IMG/VR virus record: IMGVR_UViG_3300006805_000123
Span: 1-27,704 of that record
Source of the DNA: a virus
Direction: 5' to 3' (one strand)
Length of the DNA: 27,704 nt
Positions 1,656 to 15,253 of this stretch are shown in pieces; the stretch's first letter is position 1, and each line of letters opens with the position of its first letter. Below the pieces are notes generated by a model. It was not told the origin of the DNA. It searched no databases and saw only the letters and a program-made list of their open reading frames with translations. A program made the position numbers and the translations under genes.

Positions 1656-1668
1656 ATTAATTTTGTAA
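1650..1668 (+). repeat. 19-base direct repeat, right copy
   Basis: Exact copy of TTATAAATTAATTTTGTAA at 1014-1032, 636 bases downstream. In this copy the sequence supplies the last Leu codon and TAA of the methyltransferase. It also supplies the TTTG (1662-1665) that acts as the -33 element of the promoter at 1662-1692. Confidence 0.9.
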
Positions 1669-1692
1669 AGTTAAAACGAAATACTATATTTG
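1662..1692 (+). promoter_or_regulatory. Strong Bacteroidota-type promoter for the RNA leader and replication genes
   Basis: TTTG at 1662-1665, a 19-base spacer, then TATATTTG at 1685-1692. This is a full match to the Bacteroidota vegetative promoter consensus TTTG-N19-21-TAnnTTTG. Transcription would start about five bases after the last G, at or near G1697, which is the first base of a 12-base inverted repeat. The 12-mer TATATTTGCATT recurs at 11907-11918 before the YopX gene. Confidence 0.8.
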
Positions 1693-1696
1693 CATT

Positions 1697-1803
1697 GTTC
1701 CGTCTCAATGAACACAAAAATTTACACATCGAATCCCCTGACCTTTTTAGGTAGCATATCTTTGAGACGGAACTGCTATTTATCTAGAATCGGGGGATTT
1801 TAT
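1697..1803 (+). ncRNA. Candidate pseudoknotted structured RNA: stand-alone small RNA or 5' leader
   Basis: The 160-base gap holds two long interleaved stems. Stem 1 pairs GTTCCGTCTCAA (1697-1708) with TTGAGACGGAAC (1762-1773), 12 perfect pairs. Stem 2 pairs GAATCCCCTG (1731-1740, inside the stem 1 loop) with CGGGGGATTT (1791-1800), ten pairs of which two are G-U. A small hairpin ACCT-TTTT-AGGT (1741-1752) directly follows the 5' strand of stem 2. The joining segments of 22, 21 and 17 bases are long enough for an H-type pseudoknot. The predicted transcription start coincides with base 1 of stem 1. An AT-rich run follows stem 2, and the next ATG is 17 bases past it. It could be a small RNA ending near 1805 or a leader controlling the replication genes. 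I do not recognise it as a named RNA family. Confidence 0.6.
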
Positions 1804-1816
1804 ATTTTACAACAAA

Positions 1817-2510: not shown

Positions 2511-3104
2511 ATGAAAAAAACATATTTAAATATAAATTACCTCGCAAAAGAATGGTTAAACATAGGGGTAAAAATTAAACCACAATTTCAACCTGATACG
2601 ATTTCAAGTATTATGGTTAAGTTTTTTTGCTCAGAAAGAGAAACGCATTTCCCAAGTTTAAAAATAGAACCACTTAAAGGGCTTATGTTAATGGGTTTTG
2701 TCGGTGTAGGTAAAACACTTAACTTTACTATTTATCGTTCAATACAAGCAAAAGTAGATGGCATTGGAATGAGAATAATAAGTTCTAAGCAGATTGAAAC
2801 ACAATTTAAACAAGAGGGCGAAATATTTATTCAGTCATTAATTGATGCTGACGAACTTTTAATAGATGACTTAGGTTCTGAATCGAAGTCAATAAAGGAC
2901 TATGGCAACGATAGAAATTTAATTGCGGATATTTTAGTCCAAAGGTATATCCGATTTCAAAGAAACGAATGTATTACCCACGCAACTACCAACTTAAATG
3001 TCGAACTATTAATAAACCATTATGATGTAAGGTTAATTGATAGGATGAAAGAAATGTTTGTATTAAAGAAAATTAACTCAGAGAAAGTAAGTAAAAGAGC
3101 ATGA
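2511..3104 (+). CDS. DnaC-like AAA+ helicase loader
   Basis: A 197-residue P-loop ATPase with Walker A 'GFVGVGKT' at 62-69, Walker B 'LLIDDLG' at 116-122, a sensor-like 'THATTNLN' around 156-163, and the Arg-containing 'YDVRLIDRMKEM' at 171-182 where AAA+ proteins keep the arginine finger. The combination of 'DDLG', 'TTNLN' and 'R..DRM' is diagnostic of the DnaC/IstB family. DnaC proteins load the replicative helicase onto single-stranded DNA. No helicase gene is in the window, so it must load a host helicase or one encoded to the left. It follows the DUF6291 protein by one base and overlaps the next gene by four. Confidence 0.85.
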   Translation: MKKTYLNINYLAKEWLNIGVKIKPQFQPDTISSIMVKFFCSERETHFPSLKIEPLKGLMLMGFVGVGKTLNFTIYRSIQAKVDGIGMRIISSKQIETQFKQEGEIFIQSLIDADELLIDDLGSESKSIKDYGNDRNLIADILVQRYIRFQRNECITHATTNLNVELLINHYDVRLIDRMKEMFVLKKINSEKVSKRA

Positions 3105-12780: not shown

Positions 12781-13282
12781 TGACGTAACCATATTACAAT
12801 TTCAAAAAGTACACTCAGCGATAAGGCATTACCAAGAGAATGTCTATGAGTTAGGCATGGAAATCTTAAACATCTTTGAGGGGGTAGAACGTACCGAGAG
12901 TAGTCAATGGTTAGTTAAGGACTTTGAAAAGCGTTTAGAAAAGTATGCGTTCTTGAATGAGGACTTGCCTAGTGACCATTGGGTTAAAGAATTTACTTTA
13001 GGCAAAGACAAATTTCAAGTAAGCCAAACACCTAATAAATGGAATGTAGGTCAGTATGTTTCTATTTCACAACTAACCCAAGACCAAGAAAAGATTGTAG
13101 ACAACTTACATTTAATTCTAGCAGTCATGTGCCAAAAGGACGAGGACGTAAAAGACTTGTCGGAACGATTCCAAAACGAACTACCAATTACTATTGCTTA
13201 TCCGATAGCACTTTTTTTTTGCGGTGTCATGTTGATGTTGCCAAACGATATTCAGCACTCTTTGACGGCAAAGGTAGGGTAA
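12770..13282 (+). CDS. Tail assembly chaperone-like protein, short (0-frame) product
   Basis: A 170-residue mostly helical protein, starts MNYSDVTILQFQKVHSAIRH. Its later part 'LILAVMCQKDEDVKDLSERF' and 'LPITIAYPIALFF' resembles tail chaperone proteins of Bacteroidota siphophages. At residues 148-151 the reading frame crosses a run of nine T (13212-13220), read CTT-TTT-TTT-TGC. The 0-frame ends 20 codons later with MLMLPNDIQHSLTAKVG. The -1 frame stays open to 13449. Such a short/extended product pair is the classical G/GT arrangement upstream of the tape-measure gene. The family is inferred from pattern and position. Confidence 0.6.
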   Translation: MNYSDVTILQFQKVHSAIRHYQENVYELGMEILNIFEGVERTESSQWLVKDFEKRLEKYAFLNEDLPSDHWVKEFTLGKDKFQVSQTPNKWNVGQYVSISQLTQDQEKIVDNLHLILAVMCQKDEDVKDLSERFQNELPITIAYPIALFFCGVMLMLPNDIQHSLTAKVG

Positions 13283-14017: not shown

Positions 14018-15253
14018 ATGAGTATAACCATACTTCAAAGTCCTAAGACTTATTCGCCAGTATTCAACCCTATGAATTTTGTTTGTTCCTCTAATAACAT
14101 AGCAGGAAACAATTACTTTTTTTACCTATGTAAGATTAAGGATTCAAGTGGAAATGTAATAAGCCAACACCGATTTACACCACGTTATGACAATGACTAT
14201 CTTTTATTTGATGTTAGTCGAGAGTTAGAAAAATACACGAGTTACGATATAAGTGGTATTTCCGTTCCGAGTTATGGAGTTAGAAGAACATCAAACGTAT
14301 TTAAAGAATACACAGTACAATTCATTGAAGAAATAGGCTCAGTAGCTTCGGTAGTTGCTTCAGGGTTAAATACTATAAGTTCAACTTTATACGCTTATAA
14401 CGGCTCATTTGAATACACTCAGAATGTCAGTTATTTAGATACTGATTGGTTAATTGATACGGGTACTAAGAAATTCCTAACCGACTTAAGAGGTGGTAAT
14501 ATTAGAATAAAAGAGGGGCAGTCTTATGAGTTAGGTATAATGACGGGTGCAGGGGCAGGGCAACCCGTAAAGAATATAGTAATTAAGACTTATGATAATT
14601 CAGGAACAATTATAGGAACTTACAAGATAGCGAACTCATATTCAAGTGGAACAACTACAGCCGACAAGTTTTTAAGTGTTTTAGTGGGTACGGCAGATTT
14701 GAACCTTACGACTTTAGGAAGTGGAAGTCAGCCCGTAATAACGTCAAGCGTAAGTACCTATACTGTTTACATTGAAAACAATTCAAGTACAATAGTAAGC
14801 GAAACCTTAACTTTTGAGATAGACAGAACGTGTTACCAACAAGACGAAATAAGATTGCATTGGTTAAACTCTCTAGGTCGGATAGATTCTTACAATTTTA
14901 ACTTTGCTAACGATGTGAGTTATTCAGTAGAGCGACAAGCATTTAAAAAAGATGTAGGTGCGTTCAATGGTTCGGCTTATGGCTATAAGACTTATGAACC
15001 TGCAACTACTAACTACTACACTAAAGTAGATAAGAAGATAAAGATAAGGACCGATTACATTAATAACATAGAAGCCGAATGGTTTAAAAATCTTGTAAGT
15101 AGTCCGATAGTTTGGGCAGAGGTGGACGGGGTTTTAGTGAATGTTATTATGGACACTTCAAGTTACAATGTTCAGACAATCGAAAAGAACAAACTATTCT
15201 CAGTTGAGTTCGATTTGACTTATTCTAATTCGTCTTTTAGACAAAGATTATGA
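14018..15253 (+). CDS. Tail structural protein (411 aa)
   Basis: Starts MSITILQSPKTYSPVFNPMN. It is almost entirely beta-rich and Ser/Thr/Asn-rich, with an Ig-like look in the centre. It has a late conserved block 'EIRLHWLNSLGRIDSYNF' and ends 'KLFSVEFDLTYSNSSFRQRL'. This architecture, with 'W-L-N-x-x-G' and a final 'YS.s...qR', occurs in tail or baseplate proteins of Bacteroidota siphophages, encoded next to a larger tail protein as here. A distal tail or baseplate role is inferred; no enzymatic motif is seen. It overlaps the next gene by four bases. Confidence 0.55.
   Translation: MSITILQSPKTYSPVFNPMNFVCSSNNIAGNNYFFYLCKIKDSSGNVISQHRFTPRYDNDYLLFDVSRELEKYTSYDISGISVPSYGVRRTSNVFKEYTVQFIEEIGSVASVVASGLNTISSTLYAYNGSFEYTQNVSYLDTDWLIDTGTKKFLTDLRGGNIRIKEGQSYELGIMTGAGAGQPVKNIVIKTYDNSGTIIGTYKIANSYSSGTTTADKFLSVLVGTADLNLTTLGSGSQPVITSSVSTYTVYIENNSSTIVSETLTFEIDRTCYQQDEIRLHWLNSLGRIDSYNFNFANDVSYSVERQAFKKDVGAFNGSAYGYKTYEPATTNYYTKVDKKIKIRTDYINNIEAEWFKNLVSSPIVWAEVDGVLVNVIMDTSSYNVQTIEKNKLFSVEFDLTYSNSSFRQRL

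Follow-up and report, generated by a model that had tools for sequence, protein, structure and literature searches.

A Kissing-Loop Leader, Possibly a Transcription Attenuator, in Front of the Replication Operon of Bacteroidota Phages

A folded RNA leader is encoded in front of the replication operon of a phage contig, and leaders with the same layout and different letters recur before homologous genes in many phages. Its first hairpin, which begins at the predicted transcription start, carries a loop complementary to the tip of a long terminator-like hairpin that ends shortly before the first gene. We read this leader as a transcription attenuator whose 5′ hairpin would dock as termination occurs, with a probability of about 0.55. 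The window, which is the whole stretch of DNA analyzed, is a virus record of 27,704 bases and, as a contig, a fragment. The parts of the leader and the first two genes behind it lie on the plus strand.

The Leader and Its Operon

A gap of 161 nt separates an N6/N4 DNA methylase gene (1032–1655) from a gene encoding a DUF6291 protein (1817–2509). Phage profiles matched by this protein, a putative replication initiator, are ‘replication initiation O-like’ and ‘primosomal protein’. Directly behind it in the operon lies a gene for a DnaC-like helicase loader (2511–3104), and a NinG gene comes after that. These neighbors therefore identify the gap as the front of a replication operon; the initial annotation of this DNA had placed the gap ahead of replication initiation genes. 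An exact repeat of 19 bases, starting with TAAATTAATTTTGTAA, occurs at 1014–1032, where the gene preceding the methylase ends, and again at 1650–1668, at the promoter of the leader.

Sigma-A promoters of F. psychrophilum carry the element TAnnTTTG at −12 to −5 (PMC9723704). The window matches this element with TATATTTG at 1685–1692 (the −7 element), and the TTTG of a Bacteroidota sigma-A −33 element lies 19 nt before it at 1662–1665. The predicted +1 is therefore G1697, the same base that had been proposed initially. No second promoter motif was found between the U-tract described below and the DUF6291 start codon.

Downstream of this start, two helices interleave. Stem 1 joins GTTCCGTCTCAA (1697–1708) to TTGAGACGGAAC (1762–1773) through 12 perfect pairs, and stem 2 joins GAATCCCCTG (1731–1740) to CGGGGGATTT (1791–1800) through ten pairs including two G-U. 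Both are present base for base as first annotated, and A1741–T1790 extends stem 2 by an eleventh pair. The best interleaved helix pair in 1693–1816 scores 54.0, a value reached by none of 3000 dinucleotide shuffles of the same segment (mean 28.5, sd 3.3, maximum 44.5), so the interleaving lies beyond chance. The next best promoter-coupled site in the window scores 39.5 and falls within coding sequence.

These stems had been described as an H-type pseudoknot. The interleaved topology of that description holds; its anatomy does not, since the strands of stem 1 are placed in the loops of two hairpins. A minimum-free-energy (MFE) fold cannot hold both interleaved stems at once, and the one obtained here contains the two hairpins. 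The first, H5 (1697–1713), begins at the predicted +1 and pairs GTTC (1697–1700) with GAAC (1710–1713) around the loop CGTCTCAAT (1701–1709). The second is built from a lower stem S2 (1731–1741 with 1790–1800) and a 9-pair upper stem S3 (1748–1756 with 1774–1782), closed by a 17-nt apical loop (1757–1773). The 5′ kissing strand K (1697–1708) has bases 1701–1708 in the H5 loop, and 1697–1700 could join if H5 opens; its partner K′ (1762–1773) sits in the apical loop. Eight of the 12 stem 1 pairs thus fall in the loops of the two hairpins, and stem 1 is better read as a probable intramolecular kissing loop, joining the transcript's first hairpin to the tip of its second.

The S2+S3 hairpin runs into the U-tract TTTTATATTTT (1798–1808), which overlaps and then follows S2, and it ends 16 nt before the start codon, resembling an intrinsic terminator. 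A simple terminator scan reported no terminator here, because it allowed only loops of 3–8 nt. The small hairpin initially proposed at 1741–1752 (ACC/GGT) is not favored, because it overlaps S3, which is present in the MFE fold and whose equivalent covaries in relatives. S3, H5, the U-tract and an open reading frame (ORF) from the ATG at 1708 were all absent from the initial annotation.

Leaders of Related Phages

DUF6291 homologues were collected from viral contigs and their upstream leaders compared. The layout is kept and the letters differ. Leaders were scored with a detector that combines the promoter motif, a helix K starting at most 50 nt from it, and a second helix that interleaves with K and precedes a T-run. 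Since this detector requires the helices that it reports, its prevalence figures rest on comparison with shuffles and control windows: 80 of 124 unique DUF6291 leaders score at least 40, against 1 of 1240 shuffles, and 57 of 140 non-redundant DUF6291 loci have a leader at most 1.3 kb upstream (score at least 38), compared with 2 among 152 control windows taken downstream. Of 796 promoter-like sites on 400 kb of a Pedobacter chromosome, a single one reaches 40. Isolated phages that carry the leader are Cellulophaga phi13:2, phi10:1 and phi19:1 and Flavobacterium elemoA and lillamy9-1; a methylase also precedes the leader in phi13:2. Across the family the length of K peaks at 7–8 bp, the commonest start of the 5′ hairpin is exactly +1, the 8 nt that follow S2 are 74% T, and a median of 18 nt separates the end of S2 from the start codon. 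Linker length showed no correlation with terminator arm length.

Alignable leader classes were tested pair by pair, in class counts where kinship is handled by clustering only. Among the 23 alignable leaders of class B, pairing of the kissing helix is kept in 98.9% of cells, and both bases have changed in 6 of its 8 pairs; the 5′ hairpin and upper stem are paired in 93% and 94%. In the 19 marine leaders of class M, all four helices of the structure taken together are paired in 98.1% of cells, with 8 pairs changed on both sides and a covariation score that 0 of 500 shuffles reach; sliding the partners by one column leaves only 36–43% pairing. Compensatory changes are present between near-identical leaders as well. 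The initial annotation had named a sequence conserved without its pairing as the outcome that would count against the fold, and had suggested a search for compensating changes in the stems: relatives keep the pairing and not the sequence, and such changes occur in classes B and M.

The kissing strands are also seen as loops of two hairpins. Perfectly matched 7-nt loops occur in several leaders (L002, L072 and L242); read by hand, L002 opposes ACATT[GTACGAG]AATGT to GATTG[CTCGTAC]CAATC, and L072 opposes AATAC[GTCGCAG]GTATT to TCG[CTGCGAC]CGA. A strict test on 90 leaders found both enclosing hairpins in 40%, against 8% with shuffled flanks; a looser version of the test is weak, as shuffled flanks pass in 53%. 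The family contains 61 distinct kissing pairs. GU begins one K strand in 35 of these and ends it in 2. The strand that starts with GU is often purine-rich; in class A it occupies the loop of the 5′ hairpin and in class B that of the terminator. This bias may be a trace of factor recognition, of loop geometry or of shared descent.

The surroundings of the leader change from phage to phage. Contig L394 has a helicase loader 87% identical to that of the window and a leader that is nearly the window's up to the start codon, followed by an unrelated initiator gene. Compared with L394, homology breaks at the initiator start codon (1817 in the window) and resumes at the helicase loader. As far as this alignment goes, initiator genes appear to be exchanged behind a constant leader. 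Contig L002 (also fetched as L395) has a loader 85% identical, a DUF6291 initiator and a different leader with the same architecture. L339 and L338, whose NinG is 82–86% identical, also have leaders; a homing-endonuclease-like gene follows one of these, and an initiator of a third type follows another (by hand reading of loops and gene names). Leaders also precede small ORFs in front of the initiator and NUMOD4/HNH-like, ParB-like and annealing-protein-like genes (named by eye), and two or more leaders with unrelated K are found in each of the contigs L065, L139, L255, L257 and L290. Judged by gene neighborhoods, the leader appears to belong to the locus and not to the protein. Autoregulation by the DUF6291 protein is disfavored, because L394 keeps the leader before an unrelated initiator.

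Several contigs carry additional or variant elements. Before DUF6291 in L070 (upstream of 3001), L074 and L080, the first stem runs into a T8 tract and an interleaved second stem (GTTGTGC/GCACAAC) closes behind this tract, adjoining the start codon; this layout looks like a mutually exclusive terminator arrangement. In L065, L170, L189, L314, L336 and L337, a motif that reads roughly ATAGTTnAtnGGTAATCTTnAAACC lies behind the terminator, a few nt before the ATG of a small ORF, and could be a second hairpin or a translation element. No family of Rfam 15 matches the leader at gathering or relaxed thresholds, and Rfam matches elsewhere in the relatives are limited to tRNA and a separate DUF805b element. 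The latter is a cis-regulatory RNA at 12781–12815 of L314 (Flavobacterium phage lillamy9-1; 52 bits), about 20 nt before a ParB-like gene, in the same early region that has a kissing leader at 14098.

Attenuation and Alternative Explanations

A promoter, a structured leader and a terminator-like hairpin with a U-tract stand before the first gene of the operon, as expected of an attenuator. ‘A leader that switches replication gene expression’ was one of the initial suggestions, and it fits this arrangement, in which no second promoter lies behind the element and which many phages have at the same position. In the proposed mechanism, transcription would begin at G1697 and the first 17 nt would fold into the small hairpin H5. 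RNA polymerase would then make the long S2+S3 hairpin that ends in the U-tract, a putative intrinsic terminator before the initiator gene. Because the apical loop is complementary to the H5 loop, the 5′ end could dock on the terminator tip by a kissing helix of 8 bp, or of up to 12 bp if H5 opens, and docking would coincide with the termination decision. The docked and terminated form would be the off state, yielding an RNA of about 110 nt and little initiator; undocking, or prevention of the terminator, would let polymerase enter the replication genes. We infer that docking favors the off state, and it could in principle hinder termination instead of helping it. An alternative fold that breaks the terminator, as in a classical attenuator, was not seen.

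In a subclass of leaders the kissing strand would double as the start region of a leader ORF. The window contains such a possible ORF of 40 codons (MNTKIYTSNPLTFLGSISLRRNCYLSRIGGFYILQQNGRK*, 1708–1830), whose ATG has its A at the last base of K, whose frame crosses the terminator and whose stop lies 14 nt inside the DUF6291 gene in a different frame. An ATG stands 0–4 nt behind K in 15 of the 57 non-redundant leaders (5% expected each), and the ORF stays open through the terminator stem S2 in 11 of them (1% expected, binomial p ~1e-11). Open frames in leaders without the ATG give no signal (54%, against 46% expected). Between the window and L394 no amino-acid conservation was found, and in an alignment reading of this one pair most differences are non-synonymous; translation of the window ORF is therefore put no higher than plausible. 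In the docked form the start codon of the leader ORF would be hidden. A ribosome that loads early at ATG 1708 would keep both the kissing contact and the terminator from forming and would stop translating next to the initiator start codon; leaders of this subclass would in this way test translation capacity before replication starts. Most leaders, in classes M, B and C, have no such ORF, so ribosome gating cannot be general.

For the leaders without an ORF, the main rival is a phage or host protein that recognizes the structure, binds the kissing complex regardless of its sequence and decides in trans between termination and readthrough. Rom/Rop is such a binder of the ColE1 RNA I/II complex. 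The free sequence and fixed geometry of K (7–8 bp, closed by hairpins on both sides) are what such a protein would leave behind, and the GU that starts one strand in so many distinct pairs could be its mark, although the same bias may reflect a geometric preference or shared descent. The five contigs with differing leaders are also compatible with it, on the understanding that a factor common to unlike leaders would have to be sequence-blind. No candidate gene was identified, and we consider this explanation unlikely, if the strongest of the alternatives.

Less probable again is a stand-alone small RNA or RNA-stability element, for which the terminated RNA of about 110 nt, or a protected 5′ end, would itself be the product. 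A strong compact fold with its own promoter and a terminator-like end would suit such a role, but the element precedes operon genes, the gene behind it has no other promoter motif between U-tract and start codon, and there is no conserved sequence for a common target. The initial annotation had also raised a small or host-directed RNA. Nothing favors that suggestion; the loop sequences vary from phage to phage, and no enrichment of them was seen elsewhere in the contigs.

An immunity system like that of P4 is improbable on present evidence. P4 blocks its replication genes by premature termination, with the CI RNA pairing with leader sequences (PMC4825925), and by analogy a released leader RNA or 5′ hairpin would act in trans on the same leader of an incoming or co-resident phage and terminate its replication genes early. 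Kissing sequences do vary between phages as immunity groups would, and phi13:2 has a recombinase and a repressor gene. Pairing in cis should win, however, because both partners lie on one transcript, and leaders in several single contigs have unrelated K. Extra copies of K are not enriched in the same contigs (8 seen, 15.5 expected; the window and most contigs are fragments), and neither are antisense promoters over the leader (5 of 54, against 4). Very improbable, finally, are DNA operators, with the 12-bp inverted repeat serving as repressor sites at +1 and +66: the repeat overlaps +1 and K varies between phages as operators do, but the location of K in hairpin loops, the covariation of S2, S3 and H5, the limit of 7–8 bp and the U-tract are left unexplained.

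Known Systems and Implications

The attenuator leader is a known kind of regulator; its architecture here is not, as far as could be searched. Literature on DUF6291, on Bacteroidota phage leaders and on kissing loops on terminators yielded nothing that describes such a leader. P4 immunity is nearest to the proposed function. The P4 leader with CI RNA (seqA, seqB, seqC) and IsrK of Salmonella Gifsy-1 share RNA structure upstream of phage genes, premature termination and complementary stretches within one leader, and in P4 the genes controlled are also replication genes (PMC4825925). In P4, however, a processed RNA pairs in trans, whereas the window leader would form a kissing loop in cis on the tip of its terminator. 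No sequence or gene relation between the two was found.

Kissing-loop riboswitches (corrinoid, purine and guanidine-II) are likewise cis leaders with a loop–loop contact, and in some of them this contact is reported on an expression-platform hairpin beside a terminator (PMC10653944). Riboswitches keep a conserved ligand core, whereas the phage leader classes share no common sequence: with 61 distinct K pairs, junctions unrelated between classes and no Rfam match, assignment as a riboswitch was rejected.

The hairpin loops of ColE1 RNA I and RNA II are fully complementary and kiss over about seven base pairs. The length of the contact is alike, but it joins two antisense RNAs there and parts of one RNA here, and antisense control of the ColE1 type was rejected as no antisense promoter signal lies over the leader. 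Leader-peptide attenuators of the trp and tetQ type resemble the subclass in which an ORF runs from the leader across the terminator, as it does in the window and in 11 of 57 leaders, to finish at the start codon of the following gene; they differ in that no regulatory codons were recognized in the phage leaders, most of which have no ORF. HK022 put and lambda nut are promoter-proximal structured RNAs of phage early operons that act on distant terminators through conserved sequence, whereas the element described here carries its own terminator-like hairpin.

The same fold with completely different letters in dozens of phages looks like an undescribed phage replication switch. We give roughly even odds to a broader reading, in which these leaders form a widespread, sequence-free class of regulatory RNAs in Bacteroidota phages. 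Each transcript would use a private ‘address’ of 7–8 bp to dock its first hairpin on its own terminator tip and would thereby gate the replication operon, the module would be kept while initiators are swapped, and several orthogonal copies could serve one phage. Sequence-profile methods see almost no conserved letters in such leaders, and the family thereby shows that whole classes of structured RNA can escape sequence-based motif searches. With its readable architecture, the leader allows promoters, 3′ ends and regulated operons to be predicted across many contigs, and the family amounts to a naturally occurring set of terminators that bear orthogonal kissing loops. Little is known about the timing of early genes in Bacteroidota phages, and a common leader offers a direct handle on it.
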